This document shows, piece after piece, positions 20,246 through 63,666 of a stretch of DNA of 64,000 nt. The notes below the pieces were generated by a model, which was not told the origin of the DNA, did no database searches, and saw nothing but the letters and a program-made list of their open reading frames with translations. The DNA is from Eunapius fragilis (taxonomy: Eukaryota; Porifera; Demospongiae; Spongillida; Spongillidae). A program made the translations under genes and the position numbers. The number at the start of each line of letters is the position of its first letter. Position 1 is the first letter of the stretch. The stretch lies in NCBI GenBank assembly GCA_963681505.1, contig OY811993.1:1790850-1854849 (forward strand), written 5' to 3'.

Positions 20246-21170
20246 CATGCACCATAGCGACGAGAGGGTTAGACGTCCGTGCACGCGCGCGCGCGTCCAT
20301 ACTAGTGCGTGCGTGCATATGGACTTGCCAAAGAATGTATAACTAAGAGGGGAGTACTAGGGTCCTATCCTTGAACTGAATTGGGGGCCCCTCCCTCGTG
20401 GAATGGACGGATTGGATTATACAGAGGAGGGTCCCATACGCAAAGGTAAGAGGATCCAGTTCCATTCCAATTTTTACGATGATGAAAATTTGACAAATTG
20501 AAATGAGGCAGCATGCGTTAAATTTTAAGTATGCAATTATCCAATTAATTTACACAATAGGAAATTGAACGCGCGACGGAAAAAGCAATGATGCACGATG
20601 CCAAAATTGAGAAAATTGCATAAATTTGGTCAAAATTAAAAAATTTGAATTATTAGAAAAATTAGAAAATTGAAGAAAATTGCGTGAAAATTGGAAAAAT
20701 TGATCGAAAATGTAAATTTTAATATATTCGAAGAATTGGAAAATTGAATGGCACTTTTATCCACGGACCGTGGATAAAAGTGCCATTCAATTTTCCAATT
20801 CTTCGAATATATTAAAATTTACATTTTCGATCAATTTTTACAATTTTCACGCAATTTTCTTCAATTTTCTAATTTTTCTAATAATTGAAAATTTTAGTTT
20901 TTGACCATATTTATGCAATTTTCTCAATTTTGGCATCGTGCATCATTGATTTTTCCGTCGCGCGTTCAATTTTCTATTGTGTAAAATAATTGGATAATTG
21001 CATACTTAAATTTTAACGCATGCTGCCTCATTTCAATTTGTCAAATTTTCATCATCGTAAAAATTGGAATGGAACTGGATCCTCTTACCTTTGGGTATGG
21101 GACGCTCCTCTATACATGTGTATAATCCAATTCGTCCATTCCACGAGGGAGGGGCCCCCAATTCAGTTCA
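20246..21170. repeat. R1 repeat family, copy B: head-to-head palindrome
   Basis: R1 runs in reverse from 20,246 to about 20,767 and then forward from about 20,765 to 21,170, meeting at CACTTTTATCCACGGACCGT and its mirror. The two arms of about 400 bp match with scattered differences. The forward arm stops at ...CAGTTCA (21,170), where the transposon begins, and resumes at 25,562. Confidence 0.8.
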
Positions 21171-21212
21171 CACAGCTGTTTGCGGCCCATTAAAAGTTGG
21201 ACAATAAGACCT
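21171..21212 (+). repeat. Left terminal inverted repeat of the RAG-like/Chapaev element
   Basis: Begins CACAGCTGTTTGCGGCC immediately after TTCA. Similarity to the right end continues past a gap (AGTTGGACAATAAGA against AGTTGGATAATTAGA), giving an imperfect repeat of about 40 bp. Confidence 0.85.
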
Positions 21213-21622
21213 ACGCCCCGTAATATTGAAACGATGACATCATCCAACATGATCTCACCAAGGACTTTATATCGTTGAGCTATATAAGGACTGCACTTGT
21301 TGTCCCGCCTTTTAACAGCCATTATAGCGTAGACATACCATTTTGCTATCCTATATGTGAGTTACATGGCACAACTCTGTACCGTCTGTTAGCTATAGCG
21401 CTCGCCACGAGTGTACCACGATCAGATATCCTTCACAAAGATCAGAACACTAGGCTACTGCCAATTTTCCTGGGTGAAAACGAAACGCGGATAAATGGTG
21501 GAGGGTGGAGGCTACCTAGAAAGCCAAACAACTAAATGCGGCCTGCTGAAAAGACAGCGCTACAAGTCGTCAAACATGGGTGAATTAAGCGATGTTTTAT
21601 ATCATTTAATGCATAGATGATA

Positions 21623-24600
21623 CTATTCCATTGAATATTTCGGTCTTTTAGTTATTACTGGTATTGCTGCTACATTCTGTGGTGCAATGGAGATGAGATG
21701 TTCCTTCATAACACACTGGTAATGCTGAAGCTTGTCATGGATTGAACAATATGTCCTATGGAGAGCATTGAATTTGGCATGTATGGATTCAGCTCCTTGT
21801 TCTCCAAGGAGACCGAACCCTACATGCCATTTTTGTACCCAAGCAACAGTGTGCACTTCAAGCATATGCATTTTCACTGGGACAGTGGCTTTGGGAAATG
21901 ATTTCCTGAAGGCATCCATGAAGTTTGTGATTGCTTGTCCTAAATAGCAATAATGCATGTGGATAAAGTTAGTGTTAAATTTTAAATGTGTACATTTGAA
22001 CTTACTAAGTTGTTCAATGCTGTCGTCAGATAGAAATGATGCATCATAAAACTTGTGGCATTGTGCAAACATTTTCAATATGTTCTTAAACTTTTCTGAT
22101 GTTCTTACTATGTCAGCTGTCAGACCTGGTTGGTCATTCAATACCACCTTAGTCATGGAATTGCATAGGGTCTCAATGTTCTTAGGCTGCATGTGTTAAC
22201 AGTGCATAGGCACATGCATGCAGTGATAGAGATTAAGAACCATTACGTTTATGTATATTTAAGTACCTGCAATGACTTGTGCACATGGTTGCCTATGAAG
22301 GCACCACCAATATAACTTTGCCTCTCAACGTTAAAGGACTGGAGAGCAACATCAAGCTGTTTGGCAAAGGGTCCATCTTTTAATGGAAATCCCTTTTGGA
22401 TTTTTACTTTGGATGCTTCAATGTGCTCTTCCTTGAATAATTATAGCATACATGTAGTTCCTCAATAGTCACTGCAGTGCTGTGTAACAGACTCACCATT
22501 TGCTTTATAGCTTGTCTCTTAATCTCAGCTTGCTTAAGAAGACCTTTAACCACCTCATTTGTCTCACCATAGAGGATGGACAAATATGTTGTCAGCTGCT
22601 CATGAACATTGAGCTCCTGCAGTTGGCTTGTCAGGTCTTCTTTGGCTGACAGCATCTTCAGCATCTCCTGGTGGTACTCATCAAAACTTGAAGAGCTAGC
22701 TGCGGTTTGCGATGAGGAACAGGCAAGCTTCAAATCAAGCTCATGGCACGTGTCCTCAAATAGCTTGAATATCTTTGTGAACACACCCAGAGTTATATGG
22801 AGACCTGGCAAGCACACCTATGGAGGGGAAAGTGTGAGAATGGAAGGGGCGAGTGCAACATGATGACTGTTTTCTAACCTGGCATATAGGAATGTTAAAA
22901 ATTGGCTTTGAGATGCAATTGTGGTACAATTGTGCATCACTCCTAATCCCTCTATTTTCCACGTACTTTAGGTTATCCTGAATCATCGTCTCCAATGTGC
23001 GCACCTCAAATGATCCTCTGATGGTAGTAGCAATCTTCATCTTATCTTTGTGGATATGGCAACACAAGCAAGGATAGCACCCTGTGTACAAAGTTTAGTC
23101 ATAATGGGTGTTATTAACATCTAGTATTGACGCACCACAAGCTCCAGAAAGGCCATACATTGTACTGAAAAATTCGTAGTCACCGCAAAGAAACAACTTG
23201 ATTTTATGTTGCCTATGTTTAATAAAATCATTTGTTTGTTAGTAAAAATTTATTTAACACCAACCTCCATTTTATCATTTGCAGTTCTGCCACCTGGTCT
23301 TGATAGCGATCTAATGCTACATGTAGGTTTGTGATGTTGTCATCTGCCTCAAAACAGCAGAAGACGCAAGTATTTTGGGGAGAATTGGGCGAGGGAACAT
23401 TAACAATTTGAAAACTCATCTTGAATGACCCTCCACCCTTGTCTCCTCCAAGCTTTATCCACACTTCATCACTGGGGATTACGTCATGCCAAGTGAGCCT
23501 GCCAGCTCTATGTAAACACATATGCATTAATATATGCATCTATGTAATTCATTCATTACTTGGCATTCTCATCCAGCAGTTGGAACACTTTTTGCACCAG
23601 ATTTGGAACATAGACCAGGGCAGCTCCTCGTATCTCCTCTCCCCCAGACTTCAGTGAAAATGAAAAAGGGGCAATCTCTCCTTTGAGGTTACCCCTGATC
23701 ATCTCTCTCGAGATTTGCCGCATCCTTTCTTCACCACCAATGGAGATTCCTGAAGCCTTAAGCCATCTAAGTTTATAAGTAAGTAATAATAGAGTTATTT
23801 TTAAAATGCTGCGGCATGTGCATATATGATGCTGACCTTCGGAGGTGCCGCAACTTGTGCCAAGGAATTGCTAGGCCAGCCTTGATTGCCAAGCCTTGCT
23901 CTGCACTCACTTTGATGTCCATAGCAATCCCCGACTCTACTAACAAATGCTGCTTTTCTTCATCACTCAGCCACTTAATTTCATTCTCAAGTAAGGTGGA
24001 TGCCTCCCCTCCACTGACGATGTCGTGCACGTGGCTCATCTCTTGACACCTTCGCTTGAGTGTCCTCTTGCTGACTGAGTTGGTTACATTGTAGGTGGCT
24101 GTAACCCTCCTGAATGTGACTGGCTGTAAGAAAGTCAACATTCATTTTGACTGTGAATATGTATATGTGGGTCTATGGTTATCTGCTGAGTGCACTTACC
24201 CTTCCTCGTGTTGGACATTGCAAAACAGGGTTCTCAGGGCTTGTTGATGACATGCGTCTCAGGACACCTGCAGCAGCTATCATCTCTTCTTCAGTAGGAG
24301 ATGGTGTACACTGGTGATCATCAAAACTTCTAGCTTTGATGTCCCTGGAACAGGCTGCACAATGAATCAATAAATCGCCCAAGATCTTCAATACCAAGGT
24401 GGGTGCAGGGTTAAGAAGTAGTGGTGCTGTGTCACAACAACAGGGACACTGTACATCTGCCGACATCACTATCCATTGCCTGATGCATTTGGTACACACA
24501 AGTGCTTTGCATGGCAGCTCCAAGGGCTGCTTGACCACCTCAAGGCACAGAGGACACTTCAGATGCTGTAGAATATTGTCATCTGCTACAAAGAAGTGAT

Positions 24601-25113
24601 CAGTAGGGTCACCATCACCAAGAGCATTTAGTGGGAGTGGTGAAATGGCATCAATGTACTTTAAAAGCTTATTAGCATGGCCTTCTTTGGCTGGATGAAG
24701 GACTGTGGGTGGCCTTCCCACTTGCTGAGTGGACATGAAGTGTTCACAGACCTTATGTGTGGATTTAAAGACATTAATACACATGCCATCATACTGGGGT
24801 GTAAACATCTCACCATGCAAGGTTCACTTCTATGAGGTAGCCACCAAAATGCAGTCACACAGCACCTATATGGTACTCCCTGTGCAGCTGCATCCATTGC
24901 CTTTTGAAGGGAACGCTTGCAGGAGCTACAGAAACTTTGTGGGTAAACCATTGCATCCTCCTCAGCTTGAAATGCCATTCCAAACACCTTCTGCAAGGCC
25001 TGAGTATATGGCTCACACTGGTATGTGGTGTCCTTTTTATTGCCCCTTCTGTCATACATGCGTTTTGCACACACTCTGCAGTGCAGCTGAACTTGTTGGT
25101 GGTGGTAATCCAT
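21623..25113 (-). CDS. RAG1-like zinc/RING region fused to CMC DDE transposase (eleven exons, about 958 aa)
   Basis: Predicted exons (minus strand): 25113-24814, 24751-24200, 24123-23837, 23766-23560, 23507-23265, 23212-23136, 23081-22879, 22817-22473, 22431-22267, 22186-22006, 21939-21623. All junctions are GT-AG, introns are 41-75 nt, and the total is 2,877 nt with no stop. N-terminal region: C12..C15, FCSSC at 61-65 and WLPH at 91-94, the pattern of the RAG1 N-terminal zinc motif. A RING finger follows at about 166-205 (CPLC, CKALVCTKC, CPCC) and a CAAC...HQC finger at about 231-248, in the same order as in RAG1. The rest is CMC transposase: HLRRWLKASGI, GGDKGG (D about 471), LFLCGDYEF (D about 541), CLPGLHITLGV, and GEQGAESIH (E about 900-904), the likely DDE triad. 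This matches what I know of N-RAG-TP, described in Aplysia. Introns 1 and 8 have alternative 20-nt forms in the same frame; the longer forms fit the other introns better. Confidence 0.88.
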
Positions 25114-25519
25114 TCAGCCTATACAACACCGCATCATTATTCATAGAAACAAGCCGACTGTTTAGGCCGAAAACAGCCGGCCGCACTTAGTTAATGGCAT
25201 AAACCTTTCACCTAAAGTGTTAACACTGCCTCTATGTCTAACCTACCAGTGAGAAAATTGGCAGCTCGATGCAATCCGCGCTTCCGTAACATAAGCTTGA
25301 GATGACGTAACGGCATATGCTTATGAAAAACGGTCAGTGTTTTAATTGGTTCGCGTAATATGAATTGTTCAGATGTGTATGTTATAGAGGAATGATTGCT
25401 GGTACAAATGCATCAGCTTCTAATAGCACCAGGTGTAAGCTTCAAGCAAGCCATGCCGTTAAACATTGCATAGCGATAATGAGGCTAACCGCCATGATTT
25501 CTACACCATATACCGTAAC

Positions 25520-25561
25520 GCTCTAATTATCCAACTAAATGTCCAGCCTCAAACAGCCGTG
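25520..25561 (-). repeat. Right terminal inverted repeat of the RAG-like/Chapaev element
   Basis: Ends AGCCTCAAACAGCCGTG at 25,561, directly followed by TTCA. A related motif (GGCCGAAAACAGCCGG) recurs internally at about 25,165-25,180, so the terminus has a subterminal echo. Confidence 0.85.
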
Positions 25562-26135
25562 TTCAAGGATAGTACCCTAGTACTCCCCTCTTGGTTACTT
25601 TCTTTGGCAAGTCCATATGCACGCACGCACTAGTACGGACGCGCGCGCGCGTGCACGGACTAACACTGTCGTCGCTATGGTGCATGCACGGACTAACACT
25701 GTCGTCGCTATGGTGCATGCACGGACTAAGACTCTCGTGCTATGGGCGAATTAGATTAACAGGAGGAGCATACTCGTCCCACCCTGGTATAGTCAAGGAA
25801 ATATCATCATTTGGCAACAAAACAGATATCTGTTATGTGATAATGGCATCTCATTCTTATTCTTAGTCTTCATTCACTCACTCAGCCATGGAGCAGCATG
25901 GCGTCCAATTAATTCGTCCATGCCACGAGGGAGGGCCCCCAATTCAGTTCAAGGATAGGACCCTAGTACTACCCTCTTAGTTACTTGCTTTGGCAAGTCC
26001 ATATGCACGCATGCACGGACTAACACTCTCGTCGCTATGGTGCATGCACGGACTAACACGGGCGAATTAGATTAACAAGAGGAGCATACTTGTCCCACCC
26101 TGGTAGCCAAGGTAACGATCACAAGGAATCGTCAT
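25562..26135 (+). repeat. R1 repeat family, copy C (continuation of the arm cut by the transposon)
   Basis: Starts TTCAAGGATAGTACCCTAGT, exactly where copy B stops at 21,170. It then shows TTTGGCAAGTCCATATGCAC, the (GC)n core and two tandem units of CACGGACTAACACTGTCGTC. From about 25,910 a second partial R1 (GGGCCCCCAATTCAGTTCAA) follows, running to GGAGCATACTTGTCCCACCC. Confidence 0.8.
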
Positions 26136-46392: not shown

Positions 46393-48114
46393 TTATCCAG
46401 ACACCCCTGGTGTGTCCATAAGAGCCAGAGAAGGAGGCATTGCCTCGTTTTGCAATGCCTCCTTCACAACATGCATGCAAAGCTCTCTTGTAGTATTTGC
46501 AATTGTTGAATCATTAAGCTTTATCCCAGCTGCATGTACACTGTAGAGATGTGGTAGCATAGTGCGCAAAACTGACACCTTTTCAAGGCCTTCAATTTGC
46601 ACCCGTGGACTGAATTCATTTTCACTATCTGCATCATCACCATCCTCCACATCCATTACCTCTCTCTCCTCCTCAAGGTGCAGCCATGTAGTCAACATAT
46701 CAACTGCCTCTGACTGCAGTTCTTGCACAGCTTTAGCTACAACATCAAGGCCAGTGCCATTAAGCATTACCCCTGTACTAGGATATGACATGGACAGTTT
46801 AGACAATAAGTCCCTCATATGATGCAATGTCTCTTCTTCCAACTTATCCATTGCATCAAGATGGTCATCTGCTGGATTGGTCACCATGTTTTTAGCAGGT
46901 AAGCAGTTCGCACGCCTCCAACATGTTTCAATCACTGCAGGTTTAATACTTTCCCAAGAGCTCTTCATCAGTGCCATTGCATCGCTTACATGTGGAGCCT
47001 TCCCATATTGCAAGCCAGCACAACCTGACGGCAACTGCTCAGCTAAACTTTGTAGATTTTCATACCCAGGGGCAACACATACAAGATGTTCCAACAATTT
47101 ACTCTTATACTTGGTCTTGAAGGTTAATATAATACCTTGATCAAGAGGTTGAAATATGGAGGTTATATTAGGTGGAAAAGTAAAAATTCTAACCTGGCCT
47201 AAGGGATCATTACAGTCCCGATCATGGCCAGAAAAACCATCTAACAATAATGCGACTGGACTTGATGTCCAAACACGTACTTCTTTAAGAAAAATCTCAT
47301 GCCACCATCTTTGAAAAGTTTCAGTATCATTCCAAGCAGACTTCTGGCTGAAGTAAGGTAGCTGTGGAGGGTTTCTGACAAAGCAACGAGGCCGTTTAGC
47401 AGTTCCAATAACAACGGGTGATATCTTAAAAGTGCCAGTTGCATTAGCGCAGAGAATTACAGTTAGACGGTCTTTGGGTTTCATTTGTTTTGTCCCCCTA
47501 GCAGTTTTTTTGCATTCTCCGGGCATTAAGTACGTTCTGCTGGGAATTGACTTATAGAAGACACCTGTTTCGTCCATATTAAATATATTCTCAACTTCAT
47601 AACTTTGGGATGAAATTAAGTGTTTCAGTTTCTCAATCTCCTTTGTCGCGTCTTCAACATTTACATCTCCTGCTTCCCCACACAACCGGACTGAATTTTC
47701 TATATTGTACCGCCAACGACATCTATTAAACCAACCATCTGACGCTTTAAAATCCGTTATATTGCGCACTCGAGCTTCGTGTAAAGCACGCGCTTGAACT
47801 AATTCCCTAGACACTGGTAAAGGACGCCTATTACCGGTCATTTTACGCCGAGCGCAAAGCCACTCAAAAACTGCCGAATCGATATCTGGATATTTACACT
47901 TCTTGGCCAGTATTTTTGACAGCTTTGGTACAGTACTCTTATCAATAGCATCCCGGGATTTGTACAGCTTGTATACCTGTGTTTTCCCTATTCCATACTC
48001 ACTTACAATATCAACAGGTAGTTTTCCTAACCTCACTTCTTCTATTACCTTCTTCTTTTCTTCGGTAGAAAGAAACTTCCTTTTCGATCGCTGACTTGAA
48101 CACACCGCCGTCAT
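46393..48114 (-). CDS. Tigger/pogo-family transposase, intact, 573 aa
   Basis: Single uninterrupted frame from ATG 48,114 to TAA 46,393. Residues about 7-60: psq/CENP-B-type helix-turn-helix (SQRSKRKFLSTEEKKKVIEE, GIGKTQVYKLYKSRD). Residues about 72-150: Tc5-type DNA-binding domain (FEWLCARRKM, DGWFNRCRWRYNI). Catalytic domain: FNMDETGVFYK (D181), LLLDGFSGHD (D292) and FPPNITSIFQPLDQGI (D325), with 32 residues between the last two Asp, so DD32D. All three acidic residues are present. The C-terminal region has an acidic patch (EEREVMDVEDGDDADSENEF). Length fits the family. It would cut the element at its TA-flanked ends in the nucleus. Could also be called jerky/CENP-B-like, but the terminal repeats make it a transposase. 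Confidence 0.95.
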   Translation of the reverse strand: MTAVCSSQRSKRKFLSTEEKKKVIEEVRLGKLPVDIVSEYGIGKTQVYKLYKSRDAIDKSTVPKLSKILAKKCKYPDIDSAVFEWLCARRKMTGNRRPLPVSRELVQARALHEARVRNITDFKASDGWFNRCRWRYNIENSVRLCGEAGDVNVEDATKEIEKLKHLISSQSYEVENIFNMDETGVFYKSIPSRTYLMPGECKKTARGTKQMKPKDRLTVILCANATGTFKISPVVIGTAKRPRCFVRNPPQLPYFSQKSAWNDTETFQRWWHEIFLKEVRVWTSSPVALLLDGFSGHDRDCNDPLGQVRIFTFPPNITSIFQPLDQGIILTFKTKYKSKLLEHLVCVAPGYENLQSLAEQLPSGCAGLQYGKAPHVSDAMALMKSSWESIKPAVIETCWRRANCLPAKNMVTNPADDHLDAMDKLEEETLHHMRDLLSKLSMSYPSTGVMLNGTGLDVVAKAVQELQSEAVDMLTTWLHLEEEREVMDVEDGDDADSENEFSPRVQIEGLEKVSVLRTMLPHLYSVHAAGIKLNDSTIANTTRELCMHVVKEALQNEAMPPSLALMDTPGVSG

Positions 48115-48607
48115 TGTTTACTTGCTCCAAATAATACACACGACGCAGCACGTGCATCAAATATTTAAGAAAATGTGTCTGCCAGGGTACGGTTTTGGAA
48201 CGCAGATGAATGCAAGGTATGGTTTTTTACTCAGTGCGCTACTCACACCAGCTGTTTGTTTGAAAGGTAGCACTGCCGTTAGTGCTATAAGGCACCCGCC
48301 AAAAAGGATAAGCTACAAATGAGGTTGTGGCAGTTTTCATGCTGTACACTTGTGTCGAGACAGAGACTATTTTGTATTGAGTATTCTGGTGCTACTTTGC
48401 AGTAAGAAAATTCTGTGCACACGCACACCTCACACAAAGCTGCACAACCTGGTTTATTTGCCGTCTGCTTGGTAACAAAAAAATGTAAGAGGTGGATATG
48501 TGCCATGTTTTACAAATCTTACCTTTCAGGGAATATGAAGGTCAAAGTGAATAATGCCTCTAAGTTTTGACCCATGTATGTTGTTTGGCAGTGTGTGTGG
48601 GCAGGTC

Positions 48608-53352: not shown

Positions 53353-56148
53353 CTGTTACGGAGCGGATAAAAGCATAAAACTTACATTATAGCTTTCTAG
53401 GGTAATCCTGGTCAATATTCGCTTAGGAGCCCATCTTAGTTATTTCACCTATGAGACATACAAGCAGATGAAGTAGCTATGAAGTAAGGATGCGTTTAAT
53501 TACATTCATTGCAATAATTTCATGTTGTTAACATGGCCGCGTATAGCTTCGGGAACGTTACAAACGTACAGATGAACTGGAGTTTGTGCATTATTTGCCA
53601 GGAAGACACACAGGATGCCTTAAAATGCCCTGTATTAAGCCCTGCTTTAAGCCGTGGTGACAAGGGAGTTGCATACGAATCGTTTTTGGCAAACGTAAAG
53701 TCGTTTCGTGACATAGACGCTCTATCAACTAAACTATATTTTGGAAACGATTTGAGTGCAGATGGCTTACTTGCGCATTGTGCATCTTGGCACAAATCAT
53801 GTCACTTAAAGTACAACAATGATAAGCTGATGAAGGCAATAAAAAGGGATGGTACTGCTCTAAGAGATGACTTAAAAGATGACAGGAGACGTATTAAGCG
53901 ACATGCGTTTAACATTCAGAACTGTTTGTCCTGCGAGAAGGGAGAACAAGAAGGTGAACTCCATCAAATCTTGACTCTTGATGCCGACTACAATGTGCGG
54001 GCTATGGTTACAGAACTAAATGATGTTCAAATTTTAGCCAGAATTGTAGGTGGTGATCTGATTGCGATGGAAGTAAAGTACCATCTCAAATGCATGGTTA
54101 ATCTAAGAAATCGCTATCGCAGTCTTGTCAGGAAGTCAGACAATGATGCAGGGGTTCATACTACGGAGAAAGTTATCGAGTCTCGCGTATTTGTTGAGTT
54201 GACAACTTACATTGAACAAGTTGTAGAGAGTGGGGAAACTGTGTTCAAGCTGTCTGAGATCCATTCTCTTTATACAAGTCGCCTTAAAGAATTAGGTATC
54301 CAGAAACAAGTAAACAAAACCAGAATAAAGGAAAAGCTGTTAGAACATTTTGTGAAAGCACAAGCAGAGCAGTTTGATGGTAGAAACATTGCATGCTCTT
54401 ATTTTCAGACAAGGGATGCGAAACATGTTGAAAGATGCTCTTAAAAGGAGAGACTTTACTGAGGATGCTGTAATTCTAGCAAAGGCTGCATATATCATTA
54501 GAGAAGACATCTTCTGTCATGATGGTTTTACATTCACTGGCTGCTTTCCACCAGAATGTCAAGAGAAATCACTGCCAGCAAGCCTCAAATACACGAAATA
54601 CAGTCTTTCCCACCATCTCTTTCAGACTTTGGTAAGCTCCATTTGCCCAGCACAAAATCAGATCAAGTAAAATGCATTGAACAACCAGGGGACCTGGAAC
54701 CACCTTCTACTTATGAGTGCAAAATCTTAGATGGTGCTGTCATTGTCCACTGCCTTCCAACAGCATGCAGGTGTTGTCACATTCAATGATTATGCAGACA
54801 ATGTATTCATTCCTTATCTGGAGAAGCTGCTGCAAGGTACTGCCAGATTGGATATTGTGTGGGATTCATATATTGCAGGCAGCTTGAAAGAGTGTACTCG
54901 TGAGAAAAGAGGAAAGGGTGTCCGTAGAAAGGTGTCAGGGCAAACAAAGATTCCAGGTAACTGGATGGACTTTCTTCGTGACACAAAGAACAAGAAAGAA
55001 TTGTTTGCTTTCCTGACCTCTAAAGTTGCAGGGATCATATGGCCACCAGATAAATCTGTCTATATTACATCAGGTCAATATGTGGAATCCATGAATTCCA
55101 GCAGACCCATGTTGGCCTGCAATCATGAGGAAGCAGACATTCGCATTGTGGTCCACGTAATGCATGCACTTGTAGTTGAACAGGGGATGAAGTCAGTTCT
55201 TGTTCGTACTGTGGACACAGATGTCATTTTTATCTTAGTAGGTGTGTGTGCTAAGTTGGCTACCATTCAACCTTCAGCAGACATCTGGGTTGCATTAGGC
55301 ACAGGCAAAAACTATACTCTTTACAGCATTGTTCACATTTGTGCCAGTCTTGGGCACCATAAGTCACAAGCATTACCTGTGTTCCTTGCATTCACAGGTT
55401 GTGACACTACTTCATCATTCAGGGGTAAAGGCAAGAAGTCAGCCTGGAATGCATGGCAGATCTGTGATGAAGTTACAGAAACATTCATGCATCTGGCTTG
55501 TAACCCATTTGTGGTTTTCAACGTTGATTCTCACCATTTTCAAATGCTAGAGAGACTTGCAGTTTTGATGTACGACAAAACCAGCCAGCATATTTCTGTA
55601 AATGAAGTTAGAAGGGAATCATTCTGCCTGAAAAGTCCATCCATGGACAGAATGCCACCGACACAAGATGCCTTGCTTCAACACTCTCGACGAGCCATTT
55701 ATCAAGCAGGAATCTGGACTATTTCTATGCAGGCACAAGCAGCTATTCCCTCCACAAGAATTTGCATGGATCAAGAAGTCTGAATCATGGGTTCTAGTTT
55801 GGATTACACTTCTAGAGTTATCAAAAGCATGCAGAGAACTGATAAAATGCACATGCAAAGGAGAGTGTTTGAGATGCAAATGTATCAAATCAAATCTACC
55901 ATGTTCACCACTTTGCAAGTGCAGGTGTATTTACATGTAATTAACAACATCCTTTTTAGGTCACAATTAAATGAATGATACACAATGCATTTATTATATT
56001 TTGTTACACCCAACACAATGATTCTCATTTGTTTTTGATATTTCTTGGGGTTAGGGCAAAGATTTTGGAGGGCTCCTAGGCTAGTTTTGATCAGTCAGTG
56101 CTAATGAATCGTCATGCAAAATTTGATGCTTTTATCCGCTCCGTAACA
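53353..56148 (+). mobile_element. Academ-like DNA transposon, degenerate
   Basis: Terminal inverted repeats TGTTACGGAGCGGATAAAAG + CAT at 53,354 and mirrored to 56,148, 23 bp without mismatch. The interior is filled by one gene with Cys-rich ends and an XPG/FEN1-like nuclease region; Academ is the eukaryotic transposon superfamily I know to carry an XPG nuclease. The short target duplication could not be fixed. It lies inside the region of a minus-strand decayed gene. Confidence 0.7.
53533..55940 (+). pseudogene. Academ-like transposase with XPG-type nuclease region, frameshifted
   Basis: Part 1 (53,533-54,444) is an intact 303-codon start with paired-Cys/His motifs: CIICQ, ASWHKSCHLKY, NCLSCEK, YHLKCMVNLRNRY. 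Frame changes near 54,400 and 54,760 precede part 2 (to 55,783): FNDYADNVFIPYLEKLLQG, REKRGKGVRRKVSGQTKIPG, then NHEEADIRIVVH, RTVDTDVIFILVG and FTGCDTTSSFRGKGKKSAWN. EEAD, DTD and GCD followed by G.GKK mirror the acidic clusters and helix-hairpin region of FEN1/XPG nucleases (EAE, MDCL, GCDY..I.GIGPK). A further frame change near 55,720 precedes a Cys-rich tail (ACRELIKCTCKGECLRCKC...). At least three frameshifts mean this copy is probably dead. Confidence 0.68.
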
Positions 56149-61476: not shown

Positions 61477-62296
61477 ATGACTACTCGTTCTGGAAAGCCC
61501 TATAAGAAACCTACCATGGAGGAAATGCAAGGTATGTTGAAATTACTTGCAGAAGACTATAGGGGGAGAGAAGACGAAATAGCGACTCAAGAAGGCGCGA
61601 AGAGAAGATGAATTCGCATAAGAACGGGCTAGGCTTGAGGAAGAAAGACAGATTCGTGAGCGGGAGAATAGAAGGCAGATGGAAACGATGCAGACACACA
61701 TGGCGGCTCTCATGAAGTTAGTAGAAGACTCACAAAAGGCAAAAGTCGTAAGTTCGAAAAGTGAGCTAAGTGTCAAATTGGTTCCATTGAGTGATAAGGA
61801 TGATATTGAATCCTATTTAGTAACTTTTGAGCGCGTTATGACTGCACAGAAGGTGGAGGAAAGCTGCTGGTCGCAGTATCTGGCACCTCAACTCACTGGC
61901 AAGGCCCAGTTGGCATTTGCAGCTCTACCCGGAGAGGACTCTGGCAATTATGAAGCAATAAAGGCAGCAATCCTTCAGCATTATGATATTACCGAGGAAG
62001 CATATAGAAGGCGCTTCCGTGGCATTACTTGTGGCAGTGGGGAAACAAACAGGGAGCTTTCCGTAAAGCTTATGGACCTACTGCACAAGTGGATGAAGAG
62101 CTGTACTTCAATGGAGGAAATACAAGAGCTCATAGGCATGGAGCAGTTCCTCAACACGTTGCCAGCGAACAAACGACTCTGGGTTATGGAGCGAAAGCCT
62201 AACACGTGTATTCAGGCCAGGGAACTCGTTGACGAATATGAACACGCCAGGCGTGAGGAGTCGCAGCGGTATCTGGAAAACGTCAAGGGAACTTGA
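61477..62296 (+). pseudogene. Gag protein with SCAN-like domain, frameshifted
   Basis: Starts MTTRSGKPYKKPTMEEMQ at 61,477. The frame shifts near 61,605 and continues (from 61,679 open) through a coiled-coil-like Arg/Glu stretch. The region 61,990-62,270 reads YRRRFRGITC, LMDLLHKWMKSC, IQELIGMEQFLNTLP, ARELVDEYEHARR, the spacing pattern of SCAN domains (EQFL..LP and a final helix). SCAN is believed to derive from Gmr1-like gag. A TGA at 62,294-62,296 lies in the same frame as the following knuckle/protease region. Confidence 0.75.
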
Positions 62297-63328
62297 TCAG
62301 AGCAAAATTGTTCATTTTGTGGGAAAGCAGGGCACTCAGAAGACGTGTGCTACAAGAAAACCACAAAAGAGGAGACAAGCAGACGGAAGACCATAGTGTG
62401 CTACAACTGTGGAAAACCAGGTCACCCAGCAAGGAAGTGTCCCAACAATGAGGTATTGTTTGGACGTGAATCAAAGTACAAGGTGAAGGATGGAATGTAT
62501 TGTAAGGGAAGTGTGGAAGGGTGTTTGGTAAGCCGCATATTGTTAGACACAGGTTGTTCCCACACAATGGTTCGAAGACAATTGGTCCCCCAGGAGAAGT
62601 TCTTGGAGAGAAAATGGGTATCAATCAGATGTGTGCATGGTGACACAGTCTTGTATCCCCTAGCAGATATCAAGCTTGTGGTGGAAGGCATTCCAGTCAC
62701 AGTGGAGACTGCTGTAGCTGAAAGTCTACTGGTGGAGGTGATACTTGGAACTGATGCTTCTAGAATGACGGAGTTATTAGGAAGACGAGCTGGTTCTGTG
62801 TTCTTTGCTCAAGAACATGTTATGGTGGTGACAACAAGGGCGAAGAGACGACAGGAAATACAGGAGGATGTACTGAGGAAGGAAAAAGAGGTTATGTCTG
62901 GGGTGGTACCAAATCCATTAGGTGTCGCTGAAGAGGAACCCAAATTGAAGACTATGTCACAGGAGCAAAGAAGGCCAATGCGCAGGGAACTTGGGAGCCA
63001 GGGAGACTGCTTGTCTCACATTAATATCAGAGCTGAGAAACTTAAGGATCTGCAGGAGCAGGATGAAACACTGAGAGCTGTGAGGGAACTTGCAGCATTG
63101 ACAGGAGGATCAAAAGGTGAGTTCTTCAAAAGGGATGGGTTGCTGTACAGAAGATGGACACCATGGGGAAGAGGAGAGGAGATGGAGATTGAACAGCTGG
63201 TTCTACCCAAGGAGTGCAGGCAAGTTGCACTGGAGATGTCTCATGATATTTCCATTGCAGGACATCAAGGCAGGGATAGGACCAGGCAACGACTATTGCG
63301 CAGGTTCTTCTGGCCATCTGGGATGTAG
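62297..63328 (+). pseudogene. CCHC knuckles, aspartic protease and integrase zinc-binding region
   Basis: Same frame as gag after the TGA. CSFCGKAGHSEDVC (62,315) and CYNCGKPGHPARKC (62,400) are two CCHC zinc knuckles. RILLDTGCSHTMV (about 62,540) is the retroviral-type protease active site with DTG. After a linker, LYRRWTPWG... and MSHDISIAGHQGRDRTRQRL hold the His pair of an integrase HHCC domain. The frame ends early at RRFFWPSGM and a TAG (63,328). The Cys pair (CKTCSACQK) follows in another frame at about 63,340, so there is a small indel at about 63,315. Confidence 0.8.
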
Positions 63329-63329
63329 A

Positions 63330-63666
63330 CCTGTATTGTAAAACTTGCAGTGCTTGTCAAAAGGCTTCATTTAAGGGGGTTAAGCCAGCACCATTGATTC
63401 CTCTTCCTATCGTTTCAGAGCCATTTAGCTGCATTGCCATGGATATTGTGGGCCCCCTTCCCAGAAGTCGAGCAGGGAACAAATACATGTACATCCTCGT
63501 AATATGTGATTACACAACTCGCTATCCGGAGGCGGTGCCCCTCAAAAGCATTGATGCTGAAAGTGTGGCGGAGGAGCTTATTAAGGTATTTGCTCGTGTG
63601 GGTGTACCCAGGGAGATCTTAACAGATCAAGGAGCAAATTTCACGTCGCAAATTACTTGCTTATAG
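63330..63666 (+). pseudogene. Integrase core, truncated
   Basis: CKTCSACQK, then AMDIVGPLPRSRAGNKYMYI (first catalytic Asp) and GVPREILTDQGANFTSQ (second Asp). The catalytic Glu and the remainder are absent; a stop follows at 63,664 and unrelated (RNase H-side) sequence continues. The enzyme would normally join the element's cDNA into chromosomal DNA. Confidence 0.8.

Follow-up and report, generated by a model that had tools for sequence, protein, structure and literature searches.

The described systems closest to the locus analyzed here are the Chapaev DNA transposons, reportedly introduced by Kapitonov and Jurka in 2007, and N-RAG-TP of Aplysia, said to have been described by Panchin and Moroz in 2008 and to carry a transposase. 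The locus lies in a window of 64,000 nucleotides (the whole stretch that was analyzed; contig OY811993.1, C23:1790850-1854849) from the sponge Eunapius fragilis, and it consists of a 4,391-bp element that is very probably an autonomous or recently autonomous Chapaev-type cut-and-paste DNA transposon with a RAG1-type N-terminus on its transposase. Kapitonov and Koonin (2015; PMC4411706) report a RAG1-like zinc domain, Chapa, in Chapaev transposons, naming lancelet and sea anemone, and place a RING after it in two Chapaev subgroups, with C2H2 given in a figure legend. N-RAG-TP is characterized in an excerpt of another source as wholly RAG1 N-terminal-like sequence (PMC8355894). Canonical Transib transposons are without a RAG1-type front according to portions of two papers (PMC7204232, PMC4411706), and the target duplication of Chapaev3 is given as TWA, 3 bp, in a passage of a further one (PMC4079192).

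The element shares with Chapaev its CAC...GTG ends, a 4-bp target duplication, a DDE transposase with C(2)C, LH, and H(4)H motifs, and a RAG1-like N-terminal zinc domain followed by a RING. Its duplication falls within the 3 to 4 bp expected of Chapaev, the window case being confirmed by an empty site. It differs from the published Chapaevs in its host, a sponge, and is likened to them by description, not letter by letter; the assignment was made via termini, duplication, motifs, and N-terminal domain, with the Chapa likeness tested against RAG1 rather than Repbase sequences. Like N-RAG-TP, to which it is also likened by description only, it carries a RAG1 N-terminus on a mobile element. With Chapaev3, which is said to have Chapa too, it shares a CMC transposase and CAC ends, whereas its 4-bp duplication (TTCA in the window) shows no TWA consensus. 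The architecture itself is already known in Chapaev, and the element is a further specimen of it, in a sponge. The sequence-only reading, which knew of N-RAG-TP as the sole such element in print, overlooked the Chapa domain described for Chapaev in part of the literature (PMC4411706). The papers listed in our literature search included no report of a sponge Chapaev with Chapa and RING, which is not to claim its absence from print.

The boundaries of the element were fixed by the surrounding repeat, which has a second, insert-free copy (a paralogous empty site) nearby.

21171-25561, minus strand: complete Chapaev-type DNA transposon, 4,391 bp (ends, target duplication, paralogous empty site, 97% full-length copy on another contig)
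21171-21186, plus strand: left terminal inverted repeat, CACAGCTGTTTGCGGC, 14 of 16 positions equal to the right end
25546-25561, minus strand: right terminal inverted repeat, CACGGCTGTTTGAGGC on the minus strand
21167-21170: target site duplication TTCA, left copy
25562-25565: target site duplication TTCA, right copy
25911-26016, plus strand: paralogous empty site, the same repeat without insertion and with a single TTCA

The termini read CAC from 21171 and GTG up to 25561, with the TTCA direct repeat immediately outside both. Alignment of the joined flanks, minus one TTCA, with 25911-26016 spanned 107 columns, of which 6 were mismatched and 1 was a gap. A near-perfect foldback palindrome (20420-21114; 347-nt arms, 96% complementary, 1-nt spacer) adjoins the transposon, and its outer parts are a portion of the repeat that received the element.

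A single gene on the minus strand, with 11 exons and GT-AG introns of 52-80 nt, reads through 2,853 nt (950 aa) with no stop.

24814-25113, minus strand: exon 1, with the start codon and the bulk of the RAG1-type N-terminal zinc domain (residues 1-100)
24200-24751, minus strand: exon 2, with the final C of the zinc domain, then the RING (about 24437-24556) and the C2H2 finger (about 24308-24361), the RING and finger positions derived by hand
23837-24123, minus strand: exon 3
23560-23766, minus strand: exon 4
23265-23507, minus strand: exon 5, catalytic D471 (about 23441-23443)
23136-23212, minus strand: exon 6, catalytic D541 (about 23179-23181)
22879-23081, minus strand: exon 7, C(2)C motif
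22497-22817, minus strand: exon 8, LH motif
22267-22431, minus strand: exon 9
22006-22186, minus strand: exon 10
21623-21939, minus strand: exon 11, H(4)H motif, catalytic E892 (about 21800-21802), and stop

The protein start, MDYH.QQV, is common to the window protein and its Ephydatia relative P0002. Two diverged paralogues, with fronts about 27% identical to the window protein, carry the zinc domain, RING, and C2H2 finger in one stop-free frame each (L029, C14:3375572, 363 codons; L030, C16:1072526, 315 codons), so the joining of exons 1 and 2 has support beyond splice prediction. For the L029 frame, used as a single query, the best PDB match was the RAG1 N-terminal domain (6.5e-7), a result that tests the joining of the parts and not their homology, because L029 was located via the RAG1 Pfam profile; a DUF1280 match lies 1.2 kb downstream of this site. 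The sequence-only reading had placed the element at these coordinates to the base, with both ends and a target duplication, and the empty site agrees with it. Its eleven-exon, stop-free gene stands with GT-AG joins throughout, but its length of 2,877 nt has to be replaced.

In a protein database search that scored only the candidates with the most shared words, 54 of 58 matches bore the name Ephydatia muelleri or Em gene numbers, which we take to be Ephydatia gene models; the other four were one protein from the sea urchin Lytechinus variegatus and three metagenome proteins. A nine-row profile search gave 75 matches and no additional named host. The closest relatives being mainly from E. muelleri, an occurrence outside molluscs is probable, although a transposon is a weak guide to the taxonomy of its host. 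In two metagenome proteins, P0045 and P0048, this RAG1-type front again precedes this transposase; P0045 shows no RING in the alignment.

The N-terminal domain (NTD) of the window protein contains the zinc motifs C12-C15, FCSSC 61-65, W91-H94, and C99-C102, followed by a RING (166-205) and a C231/C234...H246/C248 finger, in the order found in RAG1. As a single sequence without the RING, residues 1-137 ranked RAG1 (21wb_A) first among 177,635 PDB sequences at an E value of 0.11. A three-row NTD profile, in which the window protein was joined by the two best-scoring relatives having the NTD part (P0002 and P0003), gave three matches at E<=1, all RAG1, the best at 2.6e-5. A six-row profile reached RAG1 at 7e-11 and 4.3e-9, with an antibody light chain as the next non-RAG1 match (0.0068). 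Because four of its six rows (P0010, P0021, P0045, and P0048) were chosen with prior knowledge of their RAG1 Pfam mark, the three-row profile is less open to bias, although a scan of P0003 finds the RAG1 Pfam domain as well. A profile of NTD, RING, and C2H2 from five proteins matched RAG1 102-374 as one stretch (5.1e-18), while its RING portion placed 1RMD only narrowly first (4e-9; RNF8, 2.4e-8). With a whole-protein profile of 29 relatives, RAG1 153-381 was matched at 4.3e-15 and the first 13 sequences were RAG1, followed by TRIM5 at 3.3e-6; all matches listed (best 60 of 160) fell within profile positions 22-211, outside the long core. PF12560, the RAG1 importin-binding region, was found at E<=1 in 8 of 10 scanned relatives, six of them above the Pfam cut-off, and the two without it (P0001 and P0046) start after that region. 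AlphaFold models of the NTD were too uncertain (ten-residue blocks of P0002 have a mean predicted local distance difference test [pLDDT] score of 24-52 as far as residue 170), and it is the profiles, not the fold, that carry the NTD claim. Collectively, these profiles support the N-terminus as a RAG1-type zinc domain, RING, and finger in RAG1 order, all at the places proposed for them from the letters alone, with a match that goes beyond chance and beyond a generic RING.

The transposase core has the Chapaev motif set, with putative catalytic residues D471, D541, and E892, C(2)C at 560/563, LH at 630, and H(4)H at 870/875, which bears out the proposed complete DDE transposase of the CMC group. 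Predicted models of two relatives, P0001 and P0002, match the RAG1 core fold at 12-15% identity by structural alignment, and the core of this element is predicted to fold likewise; this speaks against the suggestion in the sequence-only reading that a RAG1 piece had been joined to a different kind of transposase. None of the core alignments listed (best 50 of 194) starts before residue 163, and nearly all begin at RAG1 residue ~460, so they include no counterpart of the nonamer-binding domain, which we take to lie before the aligned core. The RAG1 core profile PF12940 had no match in the window protein. The element shares with RAG1 and RAGL the N-terminal zinc domain and the RING-C2H2 unit and, in the models of its relatives, with Transib and RAG1 the core fold. 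It differs from RAG1, RAGL, and ProtoRAG in that low core identity, in its duplication (4 bp; theirs, 5 bp), and in that no RAG2 partner was seen in the element, where only about 450 bp on either side lies outside the gene.

The genome searched comprised 219 Mb in 24 contigs. A DNA search with the element, in which 40 of 375 candidates were scored, gave 45 rows: a 97% full-length copy on C16, an internally deleted copy at 97-98% on C11, relatives or fragments at 80-88% on C6, C12, and C4, and 34 rows at 72-75% that align to the element ends only. Ends were surveyed at 20 fetched loci, of which 13 had both ends and seven were left out with an end missing, damaged, or beyond the fetched stretch; at L021, which has two closely spaced left ends of opposite orientation, the end at 713 was taken. 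The search for copies with the same ends proposed beforehand therefore yielded 13 further two-ended copies, all with CAC...GTG termini like the window copy. The target duplication was 4 bp in 11 of these 14 copies, the 10 outside the window being of mixed sequence, and 5 bp in one; Transib, in contrast, has a 5-bp duplication and no RAG1-type front. Eleven short elements (L014-L017, L021, L022, and L024-L028; 2.7-2.9 kb; mutual identity, 93.5-99.6%) have the same ends, a 4-bp duplication in 9 of 11, and no stop-free frame above 139 codons. To judge from their sequences, they are a homogeneous non-autonomous family, which was probably mobilized by this or a related transposase.

Profile searches of the genome at E<=1 gave at least 131 matches to PF06918 (DUF1280) and at least 126 to PF12560, counted as matches, not loci. 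Among the first 70 PF12560 rows, all above the cut-off (the other 56 were left out), 28 were followed downstream by a same-strand DUF1280 match at a distance of 1.1-2.8 kb, compared with 0 of 70 when strands were flipped. The 42 sites without a downstream DUF1280 may be fragments, diverged cores, or sites with other partners.

Two readings concern the origin of RAG1 rather than the identity of the element. The first is common inheritance, in which a single protein of the ancestor of Chapaev and Transib/RAG already carried the zinc domain, RING-C2H2, and core, and the Transibs lost the front. We give it somewhat better than an even chance: the domain order is identical, as is the predicted core fold, and Kapitonov and Koonin (2015) argue from parsimony that the common ancestor already had Chapa and RING fused to its core (PMC4411706). 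It fits less well that the NTD and RING are visible to a sequence profile (5e-18), whereas no listed whole-protein match touched the core.

In the second reading, which takes up the sequence-only idea of a second source of RAG1 parts besides Transib, the N-terminal half of RAG1 (zinc domain, RING, and C2H2) came from a Chapaev-type element and was combined with a Transib-type core well after the two cores had diverged; we regard this as a serious but less probable possibility. A related view, in which the RAG1 front came from N-RAG-TP joined to Transib, appears in excerpts of two papers (PMC8355894, PMC13337447), and a passage of another describes the N-terminal part of RAG1-like proteins as the more variable one (PMC7204232). 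Across NTD and RING, RAG1 is 21-28% identical to five Chapaev-type proteins, approaching the 26-32% between P0048 and four sponge proteins (shuffled floor, 5.7%), while its core, at 12-15%, stays under the 28-33% between P0048 and five sponge proteins; the front identities come from sequence alignment and the core identities of RAG1 from structural alignment, and the RAG1 row was fitted with its own columns dropped. By these figures, little more would separate the RAG1 front from Chapaev fronts than separates distant Chapaevs from each other, which does not hold for the core, a hint of later fusion but not proof. Without the zinc-ligand columns, RAG1 falls to 13-23% (13% with the window protein) against 20-25%, and a core fold common to both sides makes whole-protein ancestry simpler. 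The RAG1 core (PF12940) and RAG2 (PF03089) profiles had no match in the genome, as a late fusion might lead one to expect, but the control genomes were equally silent, so absence is not shown. We put forward only tentatively, and consider rather unlikely, the wider picture in which a large and varied transposon family, probably of sponges, carries the complete RAG1 layout at the present day, except for the nonamer-binding part and RAG2, with the RAG1 front inside Chapaev diversity and its core outside, that is, a later splice of a Chapaev front and a Transib core.

As to the identity of the element, several observations weigh against an active transposon with a RAG1-type protein. The closest full-length copy (L009, on C16) has an in-frame stop and a frameshift, indicating that copies decay; three two-ended copies depart from the 4-bp duplication (L011, 5 bp; L024, 2 bp; L017, none); and among the left-out loci, the ends of L012 are not CAC/GTG, L010 is without the right end, and L020 is without the left. 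The folded proteins were the relatives P0001 and P0002, not the window protein, whose NTD alone matches RAG1 weakly and which falls short of PF12560 in the Pfam scan. Domestication as a host gene, which the open frame and the comparison with the broken C16 copy (nonsynonymous divergence [dN], 0.015; synonymous divergence [dS], 0.053; dN/dS about 0.28, up to the stop at residue 715) might suggest, was rejected as very improbable, since the ends are intact, the 4-bp duplication is exact, an empty site lies nearby, and the insertion is nested in a repeat; the low dN/dS would fit a line of descent under purifying selection. The notion that a generic RING plus chance cysteines explains the whole RAG1 likeness is extremely improbable and was discarded, given that the RING-free NTD profile found solely RAG1 chains at E<=1 and the match to RAG1 102-374 is continuous.

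For a Chapaev-type transposon of this kind, splicing in the animal would yield a single 950-aa transposase. Through its RAG1-fold DDE core (D471, D541, E892, and the C2C/H4H zinc site), this protein would bind the CAC...GTG termini, cut the element out, and insert it into a target with a 4-bp stagger. The N-terminal zinc domain and RING-C2H2 unit may act as in RAG1, in dimerization, in contacts with protein or DNA, and perhaps in self-ubiquitylation.

Elsewhere in the window, a 574-codon open frame (46396-48117, minus strand) has a Tc5-type DNA-binding domain and a DDE_1 transposase. The stretch 61622-63663 (plus strand) contains in series a SCAN domain, a CCHC knuckle, a protease-like stretch below the Pfam cut-off, and integrase pieces, and it looks like a retroelement with a SCAN-like gag. 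A 350-codon frame at 54731-55780 (plus strand) encodes a widespread, repeated, uncharacterized protein (1,020 database matches, best 99%), which was uninformative as to the host.

For the non-core half of RAG1, the literature is divided between an origin by fusion of N-RAG-TP with Transib and descent from a common ancestor. This sponge genome, in which an open copy and an empty site are accompanied by more than 100 profile matches to related elements, would provide the alignment depth for testing whether the two halves of RAG1 share one history, and it may offer a native transposase for studying the part that the RAG1 N-terminal domain plays in transposition.
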